This document shows, piece by piece, positions 37,028 to 64,000 of a DNA stretch of 64,000 nt; position 1 is the first letter of the stretch, and each line of letters opens with the position of its first letter. Made by a program: the position numbers and the translations under genes. This stretch comes from Utricularia gibba (lineage: Eukaryota; Streptophyta; Magnoliopsida; Lamiales; Lentibulariaceae). The stretch is taken from positions 2,604,001-2,668,000 of the forward strand of contig NEEC01000012.1 in assembly GCA_002189035.1 (NCBI GenBank), given 5' to 3'. The notes below the pieces were generated by a model. The model did not search any database. It was given only the letters and a program-made list of their open reading frames with translations, and had not been told where the DNA came from.

Positions 37028-39507
37028 TTGAAGCTAAAACAAGAGCTTCTTTTCATCTGCTAAATAGCATTTCTTCAGAACCTGAAACAGAATGTAGAAC
37101 TCGCCCATAAAGAATCATCAAGCCTGATCTTAAAACAACATCGAAGCTCCAAAAGATGCAAAAAACGAGTCTCATCTCCCACAAAGACATAAAAGTAACA
37201 ACAACAAGTCATACTCCACAGTGAAGATGAGAAAATCACAACTTTCCAGCACTCCATCACGTAAATAACGTACAAACCAGTACCTCGAAAGCTACAACTT
37301 CTTCTGGTAGCGTCACCTGAATCACCCATTTTAATACCACAAACACCACCCCGAGCAACATAAATGGAAAAAAAAAAAAGACAACGTAAAGGCAGAGCTA
37401 TGCATGAATCCTTACATTCTGAACGAAAAACGCAAGCATCACCAATCGCCAAGAAACTAACCACCAGCTCCTTACCAGAAAATGAAACATCCCAAAGCTG
37501 AGTGTACAGTAAAACAAAATCCGTACGTTTCCTGGTGAAAACCTCTTCCTCTTCCTTGTCTCTGTTCGTACACCCAAAAAAGAAAAAAAATATAAAAATT
37601 TGGAAACAGCGATCGCTAGCCTTTCCCTAATTGGGCTGATCAACATGCACGATACTTTCTTTCTTTAGTAAAGCCCAATTCTAAAAACAGCCCAACCCAC
37701 CCAATTTTGAAATAAAAAGCCTTTTTTTAAAAAAATATCCAACGGCCAATCACAATCAGGACCACCATATTTTAAAAATGATTCTTCCAATTAATTATGA
37801 ATTTTGATTGAATTGAAATCATTAATATTTTTAGTTATATTTATCATAAAATCTATCAAAATTATTCGATTCAATATAATAAATCATGAATTCGATAGAA
37901 TTAGAATCTATGATTTTAAAAAAATTTATCATCCATCTCAATTCTTAATTCAATATGTTAATCAAATCGAATTCGATCAACGAAAAGTTTGATTCAAAAG
38001 CTCGATTATAGTTTCGAATGCATGTTATCAATTTTTTGAGCCAACCTCAAGCTTAGATTGAACTAGCACAATGTACTAAAGTTTTAAAACGATAATAGTA
38101 TATTTGATAATATACTAAAAAGATATTTTTAAAACGAACCGCCCGGTCCATTCTTGATTTGAACCGTAATTTAACCGTCAAGATCCGACATTGTTATAGC
38201 TTATGGACGCCTCCATTGATTTCACTGGATTTTTGGGCCTGAAAATGGTGGATTGGGTTGGACGCAAACCCCACCGCTGGTGGACGCTTCTGGTTCAAGA
38301 AAGAGATAGAGGGGCGTGGCTGCTTCCACCTCCGGCATCATTCATCGCGCATGAAAGCGTCCGGCCCGGCCTGGGGAAGTTTGCTTGGCATGGAAACAAA
38401 GATGGGTTCTCTGGGTTATCCGTCAAGTGCCACTTGGGGACTTAATCTTGGATTTTTTAAGAATCGGGAGGTGGATTGTGGGTGTTGCAACTACTGGGGG
38501 CTCGCGGGTCGTGTCCCAGCCCCAGCTTGTTGTTGTTGTTTTGGGAAGAAGGTAGAGAATAACAAACTTTGAATGAGGAGTTTCATCAGACGGCAATAAA
38601 TGCAGTTCCCTGTGGTGCCGGTGCCTTGATTCAATCTCTCGCCCACCCAGGACTGAAAATGCCCCGAGTTTGGTTGCTCCTACAGACCCCGCACCAGAAA
38701 TGGAGCCACTTCCCCTGCTGGTGCCTGGTGGCTCAATCAACCCCCAACCCAACCCAGCATTGGCCTCTGAGAATGGCCCGAGTTTGGTGGCTACTTCTGA
38801 CCCCCAACACCTCAAAAATGGAGCCGCATCCTCCGCTGCCGAAAAGGGTTGATTCCCCTTTGCCACTGCTGGTGCCCGGTGGCTGAATCCAACCCCCGAC
38901 CCAGAACTAGCCACTGAAAATGGCGCGAGTTTGGTGGCTTCTAGAGACCCGGCACCCGCTCCTAACCCACCGAAAATGGAACCACATTCCACCCCGCTGC
39001 TGAAACGGGTTGATTCGCTTCTCACAAAAGATTGGTTCTTGATTGAATTCAATACGAAATCATGAACGCATCCTCGCGAATGGTGAGATCAGATCAGGAG
39101 TCCTACCGGCAACTGTCAAGTCATTTTTGCGACTATTCAGGTGTGGGTGGCGCAGTGCACCCACAACGAAATAATAGGCAATGCGCCACGACGAAATAGA
39201 TGTCAGATTGTGTCGGGATCCCTTTTTCTTTTTTTTTAACTTTTTTTCTTTTTTTATTAAAAGATTTACCACATTTTTTTGTTGCAATATTCGTATTAAT
39301 AAATAAAATAAAATTATATATATATCTTGTTGTTTTTTTCCTCGTGATGTCAGAAGTTTCCACTTATCACTGGTGTAGGCAAACCGAGTGCGTCTTCTAC
39401 CCCTGAGGGGAAAAACCGAGCAGAGGAAGAGGAAAGCCTTCTCCTTTCTCTCTGGTTCTGTAGCGCGTTGACGAATTCCGACTCTGTTCGAGTTATGCTA
39501 ACCGAAA
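37028..39507. other. hAT-gene leader, AT-rich spacer and pPLA promoter
   Basis: 37028-37640 probably holds the 5'UTR exon(s) of the hAT-like gene. 37730-38160 is AT-rich. 38200-39060 is unusually GC-rich, with a Pro-rich degenerate repeat (listed separately). 39220-39340 is T-rich. No intact gene recognised. Confidence 0.5.
38654..39056 (+). repeat. degenerate coding-like repeat, three units
   Basis: Three diverged units each start near GAAAATGSCSCGAGTTTGGT (GAGTTTGG at 38666, 38780 and 38937; spacings 114 and 157). The third unit reads openly on the plus strand (ENGASLVASRDPAPAPNPPK). The matching residues of the other units fall in different frames with stops between them. This looks like a decayed Pro-rich repeat gene or gene fragment. 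A 209-codon frame on the minus strand across the same DNA is probably incidental. Confidence 0.55.
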
Positions 39508-41042
39508 ATGGCGTGCATTGATGCAGGAATCAGCACGTTAACGGAGTTTGGATTAGGAATGGGAGTGGGAATGGGATTTGGGGAGCCCGCCATTGATGCA
39601 GATAAACTCAGCTACGAGATTTTCTCCATTTTGGAGACTAGATTTCTGTTCGGTTACGATGGGGAAGCGTTTCAGAAGCCCAAGGACGTGGACCCGCCAG
39701 CGCCGCCGCTGATGGAGGAGGACGCCAGCGCGGAGAATAGTCAAAGGGGAAGGTTTGTGTTCTCAGTCTTGATGCTGGTGGGATGCGGGGGATTATTCCG
39801 GGGAAGGCTCTGGGTTATTTGGAAGAGGTGTTGAGGAGAAAATCGGGGAACCCGGAAGCGAGGATCGCCGATTATTTCGACGTCGTCGCCGGGACCGGAG
39901 TTGGGGGGATTTTCGCGGCGATGCTGGTAGCCGGGAAGACAAAAAAGTGTTTTGACGCGGATGATACGTGGAAGTTTCTAGCGGCGGAGGGGGATAAACT
40001 CTACGATTCGGTCAAGAAACGGGGCGGCTTTTTCAAACGGGCTTTCAAGAAATCACGTCCGTCGCCGACCGCCAGTTTGGAAAAAGTGTTCAAGGCAGCG
40101 TTCACGGAGGAGAAAACGGGGCGTTACTTGACGTTAAAAGACACCCTGAAACCGGTGTTGATCCCCTGCTATGACCTCTCCAGCGCGGCGCCGTTTCTGT
40201 TCTCACGCGCCGACGCACTGGAAAACGACGGCTACGATTTCAACCTATGGGAAATCTGCCTCGCCACGGCTGCGGAGCCCGGAGTATTCGATCCCATTAC
40301 AATGAAATCAATCGACGGGCTGACACGGTGTGTCGGCATTGCTGGCTCGGTTACGATGAGCAATCCCACCGCGGCGGCGATCACTCACGTCCTCCACAAC
40401 AAGGAGGAGTTCCCATTCGTCCGCGGCGTCGAGGACATTCTAGTCCTCTCACTCGGCACCGGCGGCCAACTTTTAGAAGGCAGCTTCGATTACGAGCAGG
40501 TCAAGAAATGGAAACGCAAAGATTGGGCACGGCCGTTAGCCCGAATCTCCAGCGACGGCGCCTGTGATCTCGTTGACCACGCCGTCGCCATGGCCTTCAG
40601 CCACAGCCGTAGCAGCAACTATGTCAGAGTCCAGGTAAACATAATCAAAACGCATTCTTTTCTGACTGTTAGATAGGAAAGGAAACCTTTTCATTTTCCT
40701 TCTCCTCCATCCTCCCTGCATTACTCCACCCTCCACTATTTTGTCGTTTCATCATGATTCATGATCATCTTTTCATTGCAGGCAATCGGGTCGGGTTTAG
40801 GGAGATGTGGGGTGCAATTGGACACGGATCCCAGTCAGAACAATGTGAAGATGTTAGTGGAAATGGGAGACAAAATGCTGAAGCAGAAGAATGTGGAATC
40901 AGTGCTTCTGGGAGGGAAGATCATCGGAGAAGAGACCAATGGGGAGAAACTGGAGCGGTTCGCTGAGAAGCTGGTGCAGGAGCATCTCAAAAGGGGTTCA
41001 AGAATCGCACCTACAGTTGCATTCAAGCAGCCTGCAAATTAA
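39508..41042 (+). CDS. patatin-related phospholipase A III (pPLAIII), with a -1 frameshift
   Basis: Two exons, 39508-40634 and 40782-41042, phase 0; 462 residues if the frame is mended. Plant lipid acyl hydrolase family acting on membrane phospho- and galactolipids, with growth and cell-wall effects. Family blocks: IADYFDVVAGTGVGGIFAAML (the pPLAIII form GTGVG, Gly replacing the nucleophile Ser), LKPVLIPCYDLSSAAPFLFSR, AAAITHVLHNKEEFPFVRG and RIAPTVAFKQP at the end. Anion-binding loop reads LDAGGMRG rather than DGGGxRG. The region where relatives have VDGGLAMSNPT reads IAGSVTMSNPT, so the catalytic Asp is missing. The frame breaks at the four-G run 39746-39749: the N-terminal ENSQR must gain one G to reach GKVCVLSLDAGG. 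As written the patatin domain is not translated from the first ATG. Confidence 0.9.
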
Positions 41043-44000
41043 ACAACTGATCCTCATCAGATCTTGCTACTACTCCACTGCTAGAAGTTAATAAGATTTG
41101 CATTGTAACTGATACAGATGGCAATGATCAAGAAACAGTCAAAAAAATGAAACAAGTATGTTCATCAAAAAGCTCTTTTTAGAGATGATGCTTTATCAGT
41201 TTTCTGATTAGGAACAGGGAACTGAAAACCACAATCAGCATAAATGACTGTGCAGTCTATGAATGTGTCATTTCCAACTGCAGAGGATGTATTGTCAGTT
41301 TTCTAGATGCTCTGAACCTCCTAATCTAATCTCTGGTGCATTTTTAAGCGAGGCCATAAAGATCAAAGCAACCACGTCACAAGTAGTGCTACTGAGTAGA
41401 GGAGAAATGTGCTTAGATTGAACAGGTTAATTGGGAAGGAAACATTTTGAGACAAGGGGGGCGTTGACGGTGACTACACTTGATGCCAACGCATGAAACT
41501 GTAAAAATGCTGCCCACTAACGCCACGCGGGTCCTGGCAGAAGGCAATGGGTGAGAAGGGGAGGGGAACAAGCACATCATTCATTCATGGCATTTAAAGC
41601 TCGGTTCTTTTGTGTTTTTCTTTCTGTCAAAGATCTCTTGCAGTAAAAACTGTACAGGAAGAGACAAAACGTTACCTGGTGTGGGAAGTAGTCATCGATA
41701 AACTGTGAAGAAAACTGTTCTTCAGGTAAGCTGCTGGGGATACATTTCTTACGTGTCAATAATTTGGTTGGGAGTAGGGGTCCTCTTATTTTCTGGCACT
41801 ATAGAATGTAGCAAAGAGAGTACACGCCAAATCAGTAACCGACAACAATCTCCAGCTTCTCAGATTAGGTGGGAAGGAAGCTCTGCACAAGTAGAACACC
41901 AAGACTGGTACAAGTGAATGTGTCTTTACATTCACCTTACCGCAGCTTGAACACATAACAGCCATGTGATGGAACCTGCAATGAAATGAGGCTAATGCAT
42001 CAAAAGTTGAATAGAGGCCTATGTTGCACGACGCGGGAATCATGAGGCTCTCTTAGAAAGAACGATGATGGGCATGATCAGTTGAAGTGGAACCTGAAGT
42101 ATTTCAATAGGAGCTTATTAATAAGATCAACAGGAACTCAATAAAGCTAGCTATCTGAATGTTTTCTTTTAGCATTCTTGAGCGTAGCAAGCAACCATGT
42201 ATTTTCATGTGAAGGAAGAATATCTCATGCTTTAGACACACTTGATTTGCACAGAGGGGATACTAGGAAAAAATTAGCAGTATGGTATCTCTGGATATTC
42301 GCCAAGGAATAGATCACACTCACAAAAGAACATAAACAATGTGAATAATACAGAGAACAGCTGACGTGACAGTAGCCTCAGTCGTTGTGATTCATCGATG
42401 CTCCTGCGTATGGAAACTGTCATGCTCACAACCAGTACCTAGAATACGAAATCAGAATGCATCCTCCCCTGCATTCCACTGTGAACGCGAATCGTCTTGT
42501 TTCAATAAGTATACCTCATGACTCGAGACAAGTCTGCTTCAAGTTGATCAAATATGGTGAACCAGAGCAACTGAGAAGATAAGCATGCGAGAAAGACAGA
42601 GAAAGAGAAGGTGGAAGAAGAAAAAACTCTTTTCAAATAACAGAGAATGCAAAATGGAGCTCCTTACAAAAGAAATTTTGAACAACGCGGGTGACACCCT
42701 TAACTCCCTGACAGAGTCAATGGCAGCAATCATTTTGTTCAGCATGTTCAGGGTGTGGAAATCAAAATATATGATGAAAGTGTGTGGTGCACCAAATGAA
42801 AATCATGTGCATGTACAATAATCATGCGTGTCTCTGGACATCTAACCCTGTAACAGCTCAACAAGGAGTAGGAAGGGACCCATGTACTCATTTTGATACA
42901 CCTGGAAAACGAAAACTAGGATGGAGCTAGAACCTCTACATTGAAGATAGTAACCAAACAAAATCAATATATCTCAGCTGCTGTAGGCGAAGAACCAAAT
43001 TAACAGGCTGGGGAACCTTGTGAAATATTGAAACGTAAGCAATGATCCCCTATGAAAAGCATTTGACAAAGTCTAATTCATATTCTCACCAAGTTCCAAC
43101 ATAACAGTCATAAATTCAATATCATATAGGTATACCTGCACTGATCTCACAGGCATCTGCATAAGATGGTCTATGAGCGACTGGCGTTTTTAAACAGGGT
43201 ACTTTATGTAGTCGAGAAAGAACCTGTGATCAATGAATGCACAGACGCTACTGCTATTGTTCACCATCTATAAAGAATCGGTTTTCCAATTCAGTCATTT
43301 CAGTTAGAGTGCATGATCCACACCTCATTTGTTAGAGCTTCCATGTAGACAAGGAGTTTTAAAAATTCAAACTTTAACGCTTAAGCACCAAATAGCAGGT
43401 ACAACATTAAAAGAAGATGTCAACGGTGTCAAATTTGTTAGAGCATTCATCCTCATGAACCTAACGAATTTCCGGTAGAGCTCCATCAACAATCTGTGAT
43501 GCTATTTGGAAGTGCCAGTCTCTTTTCTAGCACTAGAACTTCTGCTCTCACGGGGGAATCAATTAAAATTCAAACAGAAAAGATATCAATAACACAGAAA
43601 GAACACAAGGGTATCACCACAGTGTGCTGCATCATATCATTCCTTCCAGTATGGAAACACGTCTAAATCCCAAGACTAGCATACGAATTCCCATACGAAA
43701 AATTCTATATTTTGATTGTTTTATCAAGATTAAACGGTGCCAGCAGCCTGCACTTGCAATAAAAAGACAACTTTCTTATGAAATCACTGACTGAACACAC
43801 AAACTTTTGTCATTCCAAGAACATTCTCTCGTTTTCAGTTGAATAAATCCCGATTCAATTAAATTGAAAAAACAACTGCATTGTTGGGTTTTGTTGCGTT
43901 GAAGCCCCGCCACGACAGTAGCCATTTGTGCCGCTGACAAAAACACATTTCCTGAGACTCAACACATGATTTTTCAGACATTTTTACTCATGAACATTCA

Positions 44001-45504
44001 CTATTTCACCCTAACCCCACCAATTTAACCACTTGGACCACCACCCCTTCTTCCCTCAAGGACAGATAATGAAATCCCAAATCAAGAAGAAATTTCCCGT
44101 TGCAAATGGTAAAAAAATCTACAACCAAGTGGGTAACCTGAGTCATTCCCAGGGTAACAAAAAACATCAACAACCATCGCAAACCCACCACTTATCTCGC
44201 ACACCACTCCGCAAGAGAAGAAAACATCATTCATCTGATATCATCACAGGTAGAACGTGATCGAACCCATCAACCAAGTGGCAATTCCACCAGTTGGGTG
44301 GCCGCAAAACATCGATACCATCGATTCCACTACCCAATCCACTGGGTCAGAAATCTCACATTTCCAATCAAACGAGTTTCTACAATTACGCGACGTGGGC
44401 ACGCAAAGCACCCTTCGATACCAATCTTTGACACAAGAGAAGCACAAACAAACCATAAAGATTCAAAAATCTTGTAGAAAAGAAGACGAGTGCGGCAACC
44501 CAGTTCCTGTGTGCATCCCTCAGCCTCTCTGTCGTGATACGTACGTGCAAATGCCGTCCATCTCATGCGACCATGTGCACGCACACAGAGAAAGCAAAAT
44601 AATGATTTTAAAATTACATATATTATTTTTAAATGAAAAAAGGACGAAAATATTGATTTTAAACGTGGTCCTGCAACCAACCAAGTTTTTTTAAAAAAAA
44701 ATACTAAAAAGGAATTTCGACAAAATTAATTCTTTTATTCTCAATTGAAAAATAAAATAAATATCGGATATTATATAATAATATTATAATATTAAAGAAA
44801 AAATATTGCCGGAGGCGGGGGATCTGAATTCCGAAGGCCGGCCAACATCCGTTCCGTTAACATTGGCGTTAGGTTTCAGGGACGTCCTCTCTGACATGCT
44901 CTCTGACTGATTCCCTACCACTTTCCGACGGCCCGGATTTTGCCCACATGCCGAGCTTTTCGATCTGCGCCGTCCATCTGAATCGGACACCCCCGCATAC
45001 ATCCACCTGCTCAGCGGCTTTCGGATTCTACTCGAAACTGCTGAACTGGTAACCGGGAAGTGAAAAAAGTGCTGCGGTGAAGCTTCCGTTCCTTCATACC
45101 GGATCTTTTCACGTGCAGTAAAAAAAGGGGAGGAAACGAACAATTTCACTTACCGCAGTCAATGTACATTCGCAGTAAAGGTGGATGTTGATCGCAGAAT
45201 GCAAGTTAGCAGTAAATGAAATGGAACCAAGACCGAAGGTCTGCACATCGGGAATTGGGCGTCGCTTGTGGAGCTTTCATGTAGATCCCTCAGACCAAGT
45301 AATAAGCAAACAAAACTACGGGTAAGTTGTAAAGATCGATTCTTTGATGAGATCCGAGCTCTGGATCTGTCATGTGTTTCGAACACTAGGGTGAACTGAA
45401 GAGCTATTCCATTGCATCTGCACAAAGTGGGAACCTACCTTCTTCTTCTCCGATGCACCGGGTGTTGAAACCAACACCGGAAAATGCCATCTTTGAAGCA
45501 TAAA
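41043..45504. other. 4.5-kb region without a recognisable protein gene, downstream of MIR160
   Basis: Base composition is gene-like (not strongly AT-rich until about 44620), yet no frame longer than about 145 codons exists and none shows a known motif. It may hold the long 3' part of the MIR160 primary transcript, another non-coding RNA, or decayed sequence. Confidence 0.45.
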
Positions 45505-45612
45505 GGGATAGCATATATGCTTGGCTCCTCATACGCCATCCATAGAAATCCATAGAAGCTATTCAATGGGTTCTGCGTATGGCATACAGGGAGCCAGGCA
45601 TATTCGTATTCA
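45505..45612 (-). ncRNA. MIR160: MIR160 precursor hairpin
   Basis: The minus strand carries the exact mature miR160 sequence (starts TGCCTGGCTCCCTGTATGCC, 21 nt, at 45600-45580) on the 5' arm. The canonical star (starts GCGTATGAGGAGCCAAGCAT) is on the 3' arm at 45536-45516. About 43 bases lie between them, and the arms pair almost throughout with the usual few mismatches. miR160 guides cleavage of class C auxin response factor mRNAs (ARF10/16/17), controlling auxin responses in roots, leaves and seeds. Hairpin ends are approximate, and the primary transcript limits are not visible. An ARF of the target class sits at 63003-64000 in this window. Confidence 0.97.
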
Positions 45613-48600
45613 AACCCTCCACACACATATGGAGATTGCGATGTCTTCATTCTTTAAGTTTGCTGCTGTCAGGAACAAGCCAATGGTTAAAATTAGGGAT
45701 TAGGGCAAGAAGAAAACCATCAGATTCCATTTCGAGCAAGAGGAAGAAACCTCAACAACCCTCTTCACTGCACCCAAAAACCCAGAAGAAGAACAATGGG
45801 AAAATATGCACCAGAAGAAGAAGAAGAAGGTTAGGTTTGTGAGATGATGAGAATTCGGTTGCCCACTAAATATAGACTAAGTCACAGCACAGAGACCACA
45901 CTGTTTTTCTTGTGATATTCATTTTTTTTATTGGGGTATTTAATTAAATTATTCACGCAATTTCCGAAGCAAAGTTTTTGAAATCTTCTTTTTCTGGGTC
46001 GTAAAGCGAGGGTTGCTTTTCCCTTCTGAATCCACTTTGTCTTGGAGTGTTTGGACAACATTGATTCCCCTTCTTCTCTCATTTCCACCTTCCTTGTGAA
46101 GAATAATATTCTCCTCTTGTTTGTTTTTGGAGGGTGTGTGCCCTTTACAAAAGGAAAATAACTCTACCACTGATGTCTGATTTTGAACCATGTTTACTTA
46201 GTCTGGTTCTTTCAAATCTTGTCGAAACCTTCTCGTCTATTGGCACAAGGCTCGAAAAGAATGAATCCCACAATTCAAATCCATCTTCTGAAACTGTATC
46301 TTATCCCAAACCTAATTTCGGGTTTACAATGATGATGCAACAACCACTGGTGTCTCTGTCTTCTTCTCTCTTTATCTTCGTTTGCTTGTTGTGATTCGCA
46401 GAAGACCTTTCACAGCATCAAAATTCTCTAGCCCGTCTCACCCCTCAGTAACTTGCACTTTCCACTCTTGAAACATACCCTTATTTGCAATGAGATGAAT
46501 TCATGGAGGGTGTCTGGTATTAGGGCTTCTGCGCATTCATCAGACTTTGTGTGACTGTGATGTTTAGGGTTTAGTTTCAAGGATTTGATTAGGGTTCATG
46601 AGGAATTAATCTAGAAAGATAGAGAGTAGGTTTAGAGAATGCATTAGGTGCGAATCCAGACTTGACAAGTGGAAAGAGATGGGGTGGTGTCTTTTAGCTA
46701 ATAGGAGTGAATCCAGTTCTTTTTTCCTCAGGGCACTGTGCTATTCTCCCAAGTTGCTCAATATCTTACACGTACGTTTCTCTGAATTGCTTCTGTCGCT
46801 TGTACCATCTTTTCTCTCATGCTACAGAAACTGGGTAATATACAAGATCAGTAAAAACAATGGAGAAAACGATGGAATGGGTTTGTGGGGTGCCTCCCTG
46901 ACCCTGAGAGCGATGTGCAGATCCTAAGCTAACTGCATCACAAAAGCCTAAACCACAACAACCCCATCGGGTTACATGAAGGTTGCAGCATTCCCTCTCC
47001 CTTCATTCCATTAACACACACTAAGCTTCTGGTTCTGAGTAACTGAACTTGGATCAGATCTCTCATCTTAGCTGTTGAGGAACCTGCAAATGCCTCACAT
47101 CCACTCTTCTATGTCAATGATTTCGCACTGGAATTGGAATTGAAGATTAACACAAACACACACACACCAGATCTCGTATGCCAATGGTGATGAGCTTCTA
47201 TTACCACCCAAAACGAGGTATCCAGACATGTATCTGCAACCCATTCTCAGGAATCTAGATGACGAAAAGGGAGGGGAAGGGGGTAATCAAGAAACCCTAA
47301 TGAGCAGGAAATGAAGGTGGAGGGAGCCGAATCTTGGGGTGTCAATATTCAGAGAAGCCAGTCCCGGAGGGTTGGCATCAATGACAACTCCACCCACCTT
47401 CATCCGTCGCCATTGCCTAACCACCCTCTTCCTTCCCGATCAGGACGTCTCCTACAACTGCCTCTGGATTCAGCTCTTTTTTTAATCCATCGTCTCTCCA
47501 CCCCAAATCAGACAAATCAAAACCAAAAGGTGGAATAGTACATTTTCTTATTCGTCGGTGTTGTTCTTGCTTTTCAGGGAAGGATCGGATCTGAGATCCG
47601 CCATTTCCAGGGCTTCGTGAAATCCTCCTACGCACCAAGATTTGTACTATCTCCACGTCCAACCCGACACCCGATGTCTTGCTACTGCTGCTGCGTGTGC
47701 TGGGCTTCGTGTCTGTAGCATTGTCCGCACACTTTTCACAGAGAATCATCTCGCTTTTCCCAGCATGACTTCACGCCGTGGTGAGATTTAAATAAATACA
47801 TAAAATTAAATTAAAATTACGAAAAATGTTAGAATAGAAGCCGCCTGTGTTATTTGTCTGAATTTTAAAACGTGTTTGAGGATTCAATTAATAATATGGT
47901 AAAAGTGTAAATAAACTATGGGCCAGATCCTTTTGATCTGGGCCATCTCATTATCCGTACAATATGGGCCAATGGGTGAGAAATCCAAACACAGCAAATA
48001 GCCCAGCCCAATCCGGTTACCGGCTTAACGAACCATGTTCCAACAACGTTAAATATAAATTTTATTCATGTTTATTTATTTAAATTCAATGAGTTACATA
48101 AATGCCACAAGGAAGGATGCCAAAACAACCTCAAATAAATCTAAGATCGGTTATGAATGGAAAAGATGATGAAATTAAGTAGATTGACTACATAAAATTT
48201 ATAAGGGTCTTTTTTTATGCACGACAAATGATATTTGATAGTAATTTCAAAGTTCACCGTGTTTGACCTAAAGTAAATTAAGAATGGATGACCTCATGGA
48301 AATTATACCAAATGTGAGAAAAACGTAAAACCGTAAAAGTACATTATCATAATCTATATTGAAATAAACAATTTATTTAATTTTTTTAAAAAATTTATTT
48401 TCATTAGAAATAGTTATTAAAATTGTTTTCATACCCACTCAACCAAATAAACCAAAAATTATCTCGTAAAAATTAAGATTGATTTAAAAAATTTATTTTC
48501 ATTAGAAATAGTTATTAAAATTTTTTCATACCAACTCAACCAAATAAACCAAAAATCTCGTAAAAATTAAGATTGATTTAATTAACAGTAAACTACATTA

Positions 48601-48754
48601 GGGATTTGACTTTTGGGATGGATTTTTAAGATTAAAAAACTTAATTAAAGGCAATTAATTAACTAGTGATCATGTTTGCAATTGCAATTCCTTGGTGTTT
48701 TTACATCGGGAAAGCACAGGGCATATGTTGAGAGTTGAGACATGGAGCACGGTT
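45613..48754. other. MIR160 upstream region, no supported protein gene
   Basis: Includes the presumed MIR160 promoter. A minus-strand open frame of 110 codons (47749-47417, opening MILCEKCADNATD) has gene-like composition but no family I recognise. 47790-48660 is AT-rich and contains a tandem repeat (listed separately). Confidence 0.45.
48393..48580 (+). repeat. 98-bp tandem repeat, two copies
   Basis: Unit one from about 48393 and unit two from about 48491, both beginning ATTTATTTTCATTAGAAATA and ending GTAAAAATTAAGATTGATTT. They differ by small deletions and a few substitutions. Confidence 0.9.
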
Positions 48755-49710
48755 TCAGGGCAAAATGGATCTGGGGATGATGATGTCGCCGATGTTGTTG
48801 TGCCATGGATCACTCAAATGGGTCGCCAAGTTCTCCAATGGCCCGGTTCCTGGATATGCCGATTGCTGCACTGCGAATCCCACAACTGCCAGCAGCGCAA
48901 GACGACCTGCCGGAAAAGATGGGGGGGGGGGGGTTCGGTCACCAGGATCCAATGTATGATGCTGTGATGTGAAGGAAGCGAAGCGTACCGTTCTTGATCT
49001 CCTTCACTTTGTACTCTTGGAGCTTTTGGGGGTCCTTGGAGAAGCCCAAGGGGTCGAAAGCTCCACCGGGGTACTTCTTCTTTTCTGTATCTTTCTCGAT
49101 GCTTCTCTGATGCTCAACGAAGGCGATGGCTAGGAACTCGATGACTAAAATGGTGGGGAGAGTGCCCCACGGAACAGGGTTGCCCAGGTAAGTGGCCTGC
49201 CCGCCGGGAACTGCTGCCCATTCCTGGGCCTTGACCCAGTTGCCCAATCCCAAAGCTTCGGGCAACAAGATTCCAGGCTGCGAAAGGGGATGATTCAGCC
49301 CTAGAATTTGAAATTGAAATTGCTGAGGGTGGGGATTCGGAAGGCACTTACGACGGCAAGCATTGCCCATCGGCAATGAATCAGCTCCGATTCCTTGTAT
49401 CTCTCTAGGTTTTCAGGGACTTCTCCGAAACCGAGTGGATCGAAACCGAAATCTCTGAAGTAACGCAAATTAGACCTTTAACTACACCCGAAAACGATGA
49501 AAAGAAGAGAATAACTGTGATCTACCCGGGAGCAGAGCCGTCGAGGTAGGGAGGGCGATCAGATCCAGGAAACCACTCCGCGGACATGACGAATCGCGAT
49601 GAGTTGCATGTGACGCCGAAGGATTTCGCTGTGGCATATTTGGACTTGGCGGAGAGGAAGGAGGGGCACACGGCGCCGACGCCGCAACTTATCAACGCGT
49701 TGGTGGCCAT
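48755..49710 (-). CDS. LHCA1: photosystem I light-harvesting protein Lhca1
   Basis: Four exons: 49710-49526, 49454-49352, 49277-48989, 48906-48755; 242 residues, matching Lhca1. A chloroplast transit peptide of about 40 residues opens with [12 protein letters not shown]. Mature motifs: [18 protein letters not shown], then helix 1 with the chlorophyll-binding [29 protein letters not shown], and helix 3 [19 protein letters not shown]. It ends [17 protein letters not shown] plus a short non-standard tail. Binds chlorophyll a/b in the thylakoid and forms the LHCI belt with Lhca4. The third intron (82 bases) contains a run of 13 C in the mRNA sense just above its acceptor. The promoter has two CCAAT boxes and a G-box. 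Intact. Confidence 0.97.
48921..48933 (-). repeat. mononucleotide run G13 (C13 in LHCA1 sense)
   Basis: Thirteen consecutive G on the plus strand in the last LHCA1 intron, 14 bases from the acceptor, within the polypyrimidine tract. The length is prone to sequencing error. Confidence 0.9.
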
Positions 49711-49827
49711 GATCTCCTTCAGATCGATCGGAAAAAAAACAGACAACTCTAGTGGTTGAAGAAACAGAGGAGCGAGTGAATTTGTAGACAGGCGCCAAGA
49801 TATTTGCAAATCCCATTCTTTTACTCT

Positions 49828-49871
49828 ATTGGTCCATGATTTTGGCCCCTTTCTTCTTATTGGTCCACGTG
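49828..49871 (-). promoter_or_regulatory. LHCA1 proximal promoter motifs (two CCAAT boxes, G-box)
   Basis: CCAAT in minus sense at 49832-49828 and again at 49863-49859, both within GGACCAAT, followed upstream by a palindromic G-box CACGTG at 49866-49871. They lie 118-161 bases above the start codon. G-box plus CCAAT is typical of light-regulated photosynthesis promoters; activity is inferred. Confidence 0.55.
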
Positions 49872-50139
49872 TATGCACGCTATCCAATCCTATGGCTCAG
49901 ATTCAAGATCACTCCATCCGCTTCTCACTCCCTTCTGTACAGTCAGAATGGTTCGTCAATAATTTTTATTTTTAAATATATATTTACATATATTTTTAAT
50001 AACGAATATTTATTTTAAAGAAATATTTTTTAATCTAATACAATTAATTAAAAAATTAAAAGTTTTTTTAAAGAAAATTGTAAAGTTTCAATTTTAAAAG
50101 AATGAAGAACATGAAGGGCGTCATCCAAAGGGAAGGAGA

Positions 50140-52821
50140 CTATGGTCTCTGATCTCGGGAAGTTCTGAAGGAGATGCTGTCGATGCTGATCTCCGTTTGG
50201 CGGGGCGGATCCGACCCGTTATGCTCCGGCGAGTCTTCCACTTCCATTCGGATCTCCCTGTTGTTGCTCCACTGGAACCCGCCGTGGCTCGGAGAAGTTG
50301 ATGCCCCCTCGCCATAAGCTATGTATCCGCCGTCAGCGCTGTTCTCATGGTAGCCCTTGTGTGGCCTTGCAGCAGATACGCCGGCGACATTCTCGCGTCG
50401 AGCGGCGAGGCGGGGCGGCTGGAAAACGGCGTGGCGCTAGTGGATGCGTTCCCATGCTTCGTCTGCTTCTTAGCTGCCTTGTGCCAACTCCTCAGAGCAG
50501 TTGCGACGCCGTCTCCGAATATTGTCGGCTTCAGGTTCGATCCCATCTGATGATTCGCGTTTACAGAAAGTTCAGATACAGGATACTGTCTTGTTCTATA
50601 GGAGAAGCTTTTGAAAGCAGGTTTGGGGAAGATACCTGAGTGACTAAAGCGTAGAGAGGGAGGGTGACATAGCTGCACAGAACTTGAATCACGACGCTGC
50701 AAAATGAAGCACAGTTTGAGTTTCAGTTTCATGGAGAATGTGTCGAGCTCTGTTACAGAGAACTTACCCCATTGTGATCCGGATGACTATGTCTGCAACG
50801 TTTTCGTGATAGCAGGATGGGAAGCGGTACTCGTACTGCAACAGAAGAGTGGAATCCATCAATGGAGATGTCCACAGGATGGAGCTTTTTCATTACAGAA
50901 ACTTACCACACTCCAAGCTAGGAAAGCGAGTTGGAAGGCGTTCTGGAAGAGAACTAAGTGAATCAAGAAGAGCATGAGCTTGGGGCGGTTGAACCAGAAG
51001 AGATCATCTCCAGGCTGAACAACTGGAGTTCCCTTGATCACAGCGCCACTCTCAAGGATTCTTGTTCCCATTTTCGTTATGTTGACTTGCAGCTTTGTGC
51101 CCACCAACAGAAGTATCTGCAGGTTTATTGAAAGAAAATCAGATTCAGCATTCTCATCTTGCAGATCTGGTGAAGAAAATGCAACAGTCTAGTGTACTCA
51201 CAATCAAGGGAATGAAGGGCAACCAGTACTCTGAATACCACCCTGTTCCACAAACAAAAGCAGATTAAGAAGGATTGCAGCAGCAGCGGTTTTTGGATGA
51301 GGGATTTGCAGAACTTTGAAGTAACTCACCATGGGTGTTGGTGAGGAGGAACAGGAGCGCAGATGCCCATAATGCAGGGCTGGAAGCAAACCCATTTTGA
51401 ATTAGGAACAGACAGTTATAGGAACGAAGAAGACAACAGACAGAAGAGAATCGAAGAAGAAACCTTATTCCGACAATGGTTTTGAAATCTTCTTCTAATG
51501 ATTTGCCGATATACTTGTGAAAATCGAAGGAAGCTTGACTGTGAGGAGGTAGATGCGCCTGAAGAACATTGTATCGTGATCATCTGTTGGTAAAACGCAA
51601 AGGGAATTACATTGTTAACGCCGGAACCCTAATCGATCGCTTACAGTGATGAACCCATGTCTGAGAGTGAGGTAATCTACTTTCGCAACCGATGTGAAGA
51701 ATTGCCTGAAGAACGAAACCTGTTGAAGCAAAGTTTCGAATTTCTGAGAATCTGAAAGAGGGCACCCATTATTATCACCGGCAACAGAAAAAGAAAAGAC
51801 TTACGATCCATAGAATCACTCGTGATTTGCTCCATGAGTGCAGGTGTCTCCGCCCAAATGAAGTATCTCTCGCGAATCTGAATCTCTCTGGGTCTTCAAG
51901 AATTCAAAAGAATTAGCAACTGGGTATGATTTAGTTGCAGAAAAGCTGGTAACTTTGCGGAAAATACTACTCACCATTAAGGTACTGGTACTCAACTGTC
52001 TTTGTTTCGTCTTCCCAAGATCGCCATCTCCTTATCTGAATACAGAAACATCGTTAAAAAACTTCTCAAAATCTCAGAAACAAAACAGAGCAAGATGATG
52101 AAATGGAGATAAGATCGCAATTAACATACCTTCATCCTTCCCAAGCCGTAAGTAAGAACACAGTAAGCGATATGAGCGATAGCCAACATGAAGATGAAGA
52201 TATGAAACTGGTGTATTCCATATGCAGAAACTAACTGCTCCAATCCCTGAAAAAAGTTGAGCAAAAACCCAGTTAGCATCAAGCTCCAAAAATGCGATCT
52301 TTATTACTTCGTTTACTCACCCTTGCCAGACAAGGATCCTCGTACTCGCTGTCATGGTTTTCTTCGTCTATCCTACAGGGATGCCAAGAATGCGCAACGC
52401 GTCTTTCCACACAAAGCCCAGATAAGGGCTCTTGCGCCACGGTCAACAGAAACGAGATGCATCCCATAAGCATAAGCTCTGCACACACGATCAGTTCAGA
52501 TTAAGCATAATTAGAGAAAGATTAGAGGCTAGATAAGATCGATTTCTCAAAACTCACCCATCGTGATCTTCTGCAGAGCCTCATATAGAGATACCTTCTT
52601 CTTTTTCTTCAACCACTGCAAAAATGGAGCAAGCGAACTCATTAGTGACGACTGATGACACAGAAAATGGCGGTTTCAGATCACAGATTTTAAAGAAACC
52701 CAAGTACCGATCCCAGGTGATGAAAGAGCTGCTCGATGGCAATAGATATCACGACCAAAACAAGACAAACGGACGCGACGGCCCATGTGGGAGTTCTTTC
52801 CAACGATCTCTCCGACGGCAT
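50140..52821 (-). CDS. MLO: MLO family seven-transmembrane protein, with a -1 frameshift near the C-terminus
   Basis: Fourteen exons: 52821-52708, 52615-52558, 52478-52321, 52246-52130, 52035-51975, 51893-51805, 51719-51645, 51558-51464, 51379-51330, 51242-51202, 51116-50907, 50835-50768, 50696-50636, 50546-50140. Classic MLO structure: [18 protein letters not shown] opens helix 1, RHGFIT and EDFKTIVGI mid-protein, then [20 protein letters not shown] and [16 protein letters not shown]. The calmodulin-binding tail is [21 protein letters not shown] proteins are plasma-membrane calcium channels or regulators; some confer powdery-mildew susceptibility. In the last exon the frame after SPAYLLQG ends early at 50319, while the next frame continues [18 protein letters not shown] to a natural MLO-like tail and stop at 50140. 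One base is therefore missing around 50350-50390. Mended length would be 534. Only the distal tail is affected. Confidence 0.93.
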
Positions 52822-54135
52822 CGGGTTTTTTCTGATTCGCAGAAACGATCTGTCAACAAAAATTTCTGGGTGTTTGAGGCTATTGAACCAGATTCGAAGA
52901 CTTGGAGACTCGTGGGGAAGTATGCATCCATATATAGATCAGGGAGACAGAAGAGTCCAACTCAAAAGTTCAACATCTGAAGAATCAGTAAAGCGCTCCT
53001 GCTTCTCACGGCAGACGGGGTCAGGTCAAGAACAATCGAACATGAAACCACGTCACCCCAAGCCGCCTTCACACGGTTGACAACGCCACGCACCGCAGCC
53101 AAGACCGAAGAAGTATTCCTAGACACATAAAAACGGTAATGCTCTGTAAAAAAATAAATAGAATGTTTATCTTTTTCCAATGGCAATATTCAGATAAATA
53201 GAATGAAATATTATTGATATATAATTAATTTTATTAATTAATTTCTTAAATAGAATAATAAAAAAACATGGAAATGAACCTTTTTTTACCGTTCTAAAAT
53301 ATCTGACTCCACACGTGTCGTTCATACAGCAAAAGCGTGTGGTTTTTCGTCGTCAAATTTGACTAAATGATTAGCACACAGTCATGCCTTGTTTGAATTT
53401 CCCCATTATTTACCGTTTACTCTTTCTATTTACAAATCAAATAAAATAGATTTTCACTGTTTAAAATTAAATAAAATCAAATCTCCATAAAATTAGTTTC
53501 TGTAATTTCAATAAAAAATTATTCATTATTTTTCAAAATAGTAAAACTGAATTTCATAATCAAATCTTAATTTTTATTTCAAATTAAGGTAAAATTTAGA
53601 ATACAAAATTAGAATTTAATTAGAACAATCAATTTTATTATTTTGGGAAAGAGTTGAGATGTTTATTACCAATTTAATTTGAAGACCAATTTTTCATATA
53701 ATAAAATAATGAGAACTAAATATACTCATTTTTTAAATAATATCATTTATATTCATTATATAGTGACATTGGTAATTAGGTTTATGTAATAAATACGTCA
53801 AATTTTCGAGACTAAATATATTTAATATATTAAATAATGAGTATCAATTATATCAATAAAAAATAAATATTTCAATTTCATAAAATATTAGTGATATTTA
53901 ATTAATTGAAAATTTTAAAAATATCCTTTAGAATTGATAGATAGATGAGTAACGCTGACGTGTCGCCACTCCGAAAATATTTTAATATTTGGAGATAAAA
54001 TGTTATAATTAATTAATTAAGATTTTTTATTGGATTATAATTAATAATTTGGTAGGTAGCAGTCTAGCACTAGAAGGAAATGAGCATTATTAATAAATAA
54101 TAATAATAATAATAATATACGGCGGCGCCTTGGGC
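52822..54135. other. AT-rich spacer between MLO promoter and SCPL 3' end
   Basis: The MLO promoter probably lies in 52822-53150. From 53200 to 54120 the sequence is strongly AT-rich, ending in an (AAT)n microsatellite near 54093-54117. No gene seen. Confidence 0.5.
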
Positions 54136-63002: not shown

Positions 63003-64000
63003 TCATTTTCCTTGTGTCTCGTCGGGGGGGTTCTCCGCCGGCGCCGGAGGGGGGCTAGCGTCTGCTGCGGTGGTGGTCCTCTGTTGGGAGCTGATTTGCT
63101 CTGCTGTGAGAATGGGTTGACCGAAGAGGATGAAAGCAGGGGCAGTGGGATCAGCCTCTTTCTTTACTTCGCCTTTGTCGCCGGCCGCTGTGGCGTTCAC
63201 TCCTGGCTGGGAGTCGTTGCGTTTTACTGGTGGGAACCCGAGGCGGAGAAGCCTGGGTCCCTGTAAGCCGGCAGCAGAAATGTTATCTGGGAAGCAACAC
63301 AGGGGGCTGCTGGGGCTCAGGGGATTTCCGATGAGCATAGGAAGGTGAAGAGGGAAGTCGAGTGGAGGTTCGAGGAGCCGGGGGCGCTTCAGCACTGGAG
63401 GAAGATGAGGATGTGGGAAGTCAGGGATGAGTGGATCGAGCACGAGTTCAACTTGCCATGGATTGACGCCATCCACGTTTTGCAGAAAATCTGGCTCATC
63501 CCAAGTCACCTGCAATTGGATTCAGTTTCAGTAAAAAGGAAGAAAAAGTTTCAATTCAGAGATGAATCTGCGTTACCTGAAGAAGCTTCCATGGGGAGGC
63601 GGGCCAATGGACTGGATCGTGAACCTGAGGTGATGAGACAGTGCCCATAAACCAGCTTGTTCTTAGCGAATCCTCTGTCTCGAAAGCCATCCTGATTCTC
63701 ATCCCGGTGCACCATTGGACAAACAGAGAAGCTCTTACAGCTGAAGCAGACACGACGAACTCCGGCGTGCCTGCACGGGGGTAGTAGACGACTTCGAATG
63801 GCTGCCGATTTGCAGCCAGCCGGACGGACTCGAGGACAGATTCAGGGGTCCTTTTTACATGGCCCCCTTTCACAGTGTTGCCGGTTTGTGGAAGAAAATC
63901 AGGGAACAATGCTCTGTAAGAGGCGGCATTAAGTATCGGAAGCATTTTCTTTCTCCGAACTCCTATATACATTTCCCCATTCTCCATTTTCACAAAGACC
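63003..64000 (-). CDS. class C auxin response factor (ARF10/16/17 group), 5' part beyond the window
   Basis: Two visible exons, 64000-63577 (continuing off the right edge) and 63509-63003, phase 0. The first opens inside the B3 end (VFVKMENGEMYIGVRR) and carries the Auxin_resp domain: ESVRLAANRQPFEVVYYPRAG, VQWCTGMRIRMAFETEDS, DPVHWPASPWKLLQ. The second starts VTWDEPDFLQNVDGVNPWQV and is a Pro-rich middle region with AFILFGQPI near the end. It stops at 63003 without a PB1 (domain III/IV) module, as in ARF17. Class C ARFs are nuclear repressors that limit auxin responses and are the main targets of miR160; a site-like stretch lies at 63250-63270. Start and B3 domain cannot be seen. Confidence 0.93.
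63250..63270 (-). promoter_or_regulatory. divergent miR160 target site in the ARF coding sequence
   Basis: In mRNA sense it reads CGGCTTACAGGGACCCAGGC plus T, encoding AGLQGPR where class C ARFs normally have AGMQGAR. Against miR160 it pairs at 17 of 21 positions; mismatches fall at miRNA positions 1, 8, 17 and 21, and the cleavage centre (9-11) is paired. Position and reading frame identify it as the ancestral site; activity is uncertain. Confidence 0.8.

Follow-up and report, generated by a model that had tools for sequence, protein, structure and literature searches.

Introduction

miR160 is an ancient plant microRNA that acts as a brake on auxin-response genes. In Arabidopsis, MIR160a is locus AT2G39175 (PMC5799662), MLO12 is At2g39200 (PMC5570895), and AtpPLAIII-alpha is At2g39220 (PMC7238252); because these locus numbers are close, the three genes are taken to be near neighbours. 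A small-RNA study of Utricularia gibba (PMC8333044) gives the species a genome of ~100 Mb and two recent whole-genome duplications, and reports from it the canonical miRNA biogenesis genes DCL1, SE, HYL1, HST1, and AGO1. The main text of that study makes no mention of miR160.

Here we describe a MIR160 locus in a 64,000-nt stretch of U. gibba DNA (the window), its duplicates elsewhere in the genome, and the genes around it. The gene belongs to an ancient family as an ordinary member and a textbook regulator; its presence is expected.

Results and Discussion

The MIR160 hairpin

The hairpin lies on the minus strand of the window at 45515-45603. A motif search of the window placed the mature miR160, TGCCTGGCTCCCTGTATGCCA, on the 5' arm at 45600-45580(-) as an exact 21-nt match with no mismatch, and the miR160 star, GCGTATGAGGAGCCAAGCATA, forms the 3' arm at 45536-45516(-). 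The miR160 21-mer has one match in the window at three or fewer mismatches, and 100 shuffles gave an expectation of 0. The first-pass annotation had put an exact miR160 and its star on opposite arms of a minus-strand hairpin, and its coordinates prove correct to the base. It had also proposed folding 45490-45630(-), which yields a stable hairpin of -54.6 kcal/mol (shuffle mean -34.5; z = -5.65) matched in stability by 0 of 200 shuffles. The miRNA/star duplex in the predicted fold has two unpaired positions on each strand and, at either end, an exact 2-nt 3' overhang; such overhangs are typical of DCL1 products. The Rfam covariance model RF00247 (MIR160) aligns over its full length (model positions 1-90 of 90) to 45515-45603(-) with a score of 77.4 bits (E = 1.3e-15), against a curated cut-off of 48 bits. 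It is the sole Rfam match within the window.

Assignment to the MIR160 family draws on this score, the miR160 on the 5' arm, the star on the 3' arm, the stable and compact hairpin, and the ARF targets described below. By the fold, the overhangs, the RF00247 match, and the exact 21-mer, this is an intact MIR160 gene at the sequence level, as had been claimed. The "phased" small-RNA reads put forward with that claim are the wrong test, because phasing is the mark of tasiRNA loci and a MIR gene gives a single stacked duplex; there is no basis for reading this locus as a source of phased siRNAs.

The MIR160 family in the U. gibba genome

Six loci score above the RF00247 cut-off in the 100.09 Mb searched (516 contigs). 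Four of them, in the window, C213, C505, and C402, carry the exact miR160, and the other two are one-base variants. L005 (C413:1035617-1035707) is a MIR160 hairpin of 53.2 bits whose mature miRNA differs at position 14, and L006 (C412:913479-913565) is a MIR160 hairpin of 52.7 bits whose mature miRNA differs at position 13. No gene block common to the window and C413 was found, and C412 gave short matches only. The copies on C213, C505, and C402 resemble that of the window in having an identical miR160 and star, the upstream 20-mer described below, and a duplicated block around them. The hairpin arms are identical among the four exact copies and the loops have diverged. A consensus fold of all six sequences has 35 pairs, nine of which have both sides changed in some sequence; its covariation term is slightly unfavourable (+0.42).

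A conserved element upstream of the exact copies

Pairwise matches and an alignment show that the four exact MIR160 copies share a conserved block. In the window it spans 45986-46056(-), at 386-456 nt upstream of the miRNA. Its 20-nt core in the window, TCCAAACACTCCAAGACAAA, occupies 46036-46055(-), ~440 nt upstream of the miRNA. A search of 100 Mb for the 20-mer TCCAARCRCTCCAAGACAAA found exactly four perfect matches, each of them upstream of an exact MIR160 copy. This conservation suggests that the block is a probable promoter region and its core a putative promoter element. An element of 20 nt that is unique to these sites in the genome and common to the four surviving MIR160 duplicates is a direct candidate for promoter tests.

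A simple pattern search for a TATA box found none in the 1 kb upstream of the window MIR160; among the four exact copies, only C505 (-468) and C213 (-824) have one by this pattern. Auxin response elements were considered and set aside, the hexamers being scattered with none position-shared across the four copies. Farther upstream, a noncoding block at 46640-47420 is 71-73% conserved with C213 only and has no Pfam match. It was rejected as a repeat family, since it is present only in the window and C213.

Neighbouring genes and duplicated blocks

The convergent neighbour of MIR160 is a patatin-like phospholipase gene at 39502-41042(+) (Pfam Patatin, E = 2e-18). In its product GTGVGG replaces GxSxG, a motif that we take to be the mark of pPLAIII proteins. 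The next gene on the upstream side encodes a chlorophyll a/b-binding (light-harvesting) protein at 48753-49884(-) (Pfam Chloroa_b-bind, E = 6e-14 on 48942-49412), and an MLO gene lies at 50154-52822(-) (Pfam Mlo, E = 2e-12 on 50322-50786); the extents of both are taken from the C213 match. Between MIR160 and the chlorophyll-binding gene, a 98-bp unit is present at 48385-48581 in about two tandem copies that are 95% alike.

The window is collinear with C213 over 21.9-64 kb, a segment that includes the patatin gene, MIR160, the chlorophyll-binding gene, the MLO gene, and an ARF gene. A kinase gene (32-35 kb) and MIR160 are common to the window, C505, and C402, and C505 has the patatin gene in addition. 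The C505 and C402 blocks are closest to each other. This pattern of four blocks fits two rounds of duplication.

A chorismate synthase relic in the interval around MIR160

The 7-kb stretch around MIR160 had been said to look empty apart from this gene. As far as intact protein genes are concerned this holds, in that a Pfam scan of ORFs (E up to 0.1 and 1) found none between the patatin gene and the chlorophyll-binding gene, ~41.1-48.7 kb. The stretch does, however, contain the conserved element upstream of MIR160 and the relic of a chorismate synthase gene. A hydrogenase match at 44330-44725(-) (E = 0.021; 15.6 bits, cut-off 27) was taken as chance.

The relic extends over 42464-43554 on the strand of MIR160. 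It consists of four collinear blocks (42464-42756, 42989-43051, 43131-43189, and 43483-43554) that nhmmer matches to the genes on C505 and C402 with E values of 2e-16 to 8e-5. Controls gave no such blocks in the reversed sequence and a best E of 2.2 in 20 shuffled windows. The relic sits within sequence conserved in C213 (about 41442-44133), and C213 likewise keeps four blocks of chorismate synthase. The Pfam search returned no PF01264 match in the window. Because the frames are broken and most exons are missing or unrecognisable, we regard the window copy as a dead gene.

C505 and C402 have full recognisable sets of chorismate synthase exons downstream of MIR160, whereas the window and C213 have only relics. 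The joined exon pieces from C505 and C402 match PF01264 at E = 2.8e-126, and these are the only PF01264 loci found genome-wide. Measured from the miR160 5' end, the C402 exon at +3933..+4063 has a one-base frame break relative to C505 and is otherwise open. The break may be genuine or may come from misassembly, and C505 may therefore hold the sole intact chorismate synthase. Regulator and enzyme fared differently in the same duplicated blocks: MIR160 was kept, whereas chorismate synthase went from four copies down towards one or two, in a genome known to delete DNA.

ARF targets and an eroded miR160 site

Nine ARF loci genome-wide carry miR160 sites at 0-2 mismatches. The coding context of these near-perfect sites, next to the ARF domain, is IQGAR-like, and with them the classical miR160-ARF module is complete at the sequence level. 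ARF matches of identical score and identity at C2:4842361-4842570 and C112:29918-30127 are perhaps an uncollapsed assembly duplicate.

The window itself contains an ARF10/16-like gene ~17 kb from MIR160, at 63003-63999(-), which runs off the window edge (Pfam ARF_AD, E = 5e-21). It is 45-47% identical to three site-bearing ARFs and reads LQGPR where these read IQGAR. The corresponding miR160 site, 63250-63270, has mismatches at miRNA positions 1, 8, 17, and 21, and its duplex energy ratio is 0.75 of perfect. By mismatches and energy this site appears eroded and borderline. The ARF copy on C213 (energy ratio 0.55) and a relative on C451 (0.61) each have a mismatch at position 11. This position adjoins the cleavage point, and the usual targeting rules count such sites as lost; by these rules the C213 and C451 sites look lost. 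The one-base miR160 variants of C413 and C412 are not better partners for the eroded site, as they add a mismatch.

Site erosion may have freed a few ARF10/16-like genes, among them the window gene 17 kb from MIR160, from control by miR160, while the nine other ARFs keep near-perfect sites. We put this forward tentatively, at somewhat less than an even chance; three eroded sites were compared (window, C213, and C451), and the erosion is clear in two and partial in the window copy. If so, the linked group would be a concrete case for the rewiring of auxin control in a rootless plant.

Function of the locus

The locus is very probably an ordinary functional MIR160 gene, its transcription, processing, and slicing being those expected of its family. 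The hairpin features, the site-bearing ARFs, the invariant arms, the upstream 20-mer, and the biogenesis genes reported from U. gibba speak for this; the lack of a pattern-matched TATA box in the 1 kb upstream and the silence of the PMC8333044 main text on miR160 weigh against it. RNA polymerase II would transcribe it leftwards from near the conserved block, ~46.0 kb, and DCL1 would cut out the hairpin at 45515-45603. AGO1 loaded with miR160 would then slice the mRNAs of ARF10/16/17-type auxin response factors. The surrounding 7 kb is a duplicated block that kept MIR160 while its chorismate synthase decayed.

The 21-mer alone is insufficient as proof of a MIR gene, since ARF loci match it too (on the opposite strand), and the match in the window might be fortuitous or belong to a fragment of an ARF gene that merely contains the miR160 complement. 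Such an origin has practically no probability here. A star lies on the other arm and pairs with 2-nt 3' overhangs, the fold surpasses 200 of 200 shuffles, RF00247 matches at full length, and no coding frame of an ARF runs through the site; the fold, the Rfam match, and the overhangs already refute it. A second alternative accepts the hairpin as intact and supposes a silent duplicate, no longer transcribed, with miR160 supplied by the three other exact copies. The existence of those copies and the decay of the adjoining chorismate synthase in the window block speak for it. Both arms have nevertheless remained unchanged beside a diverged loop and diverged flanks, which indicates selection, and the upstream 20-mer has been retained; we consider silence improbable. 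A functional MIR160 gene remains the preferred reading of the locus.

Mitochondrial COX1

Mitochondrial COX1 reads LLLLCCSALVEV, with a Cys-Cys pair. PMC11688529 describes a Cys-Cys pair in COX1 helix 3 from every Utricularia studied and from some Genlisea. At L041 and L042 (C515), a long open frame splits COX1 between profile positions 210 and 211; this frame looks like an intron-encoded protein.

Comparison with Arabidopsis MIR160a

The window shares the mature miR160 with the Arabidopsis MIR160a neighbourhood, and the MLO and patatin-like kinds of gene that accompany MIR160a occur in the window as well (50.1-52.8 kb and 39.5-41.0 kb, respectively). Orthology between the two was judged by gene kinds and by locus numbers taken from published papers. 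Since MLO and patatin-like genes are found near MIR160 in both, the window block resembles, and looks like, the ancestral MIR160a neighbourhood.
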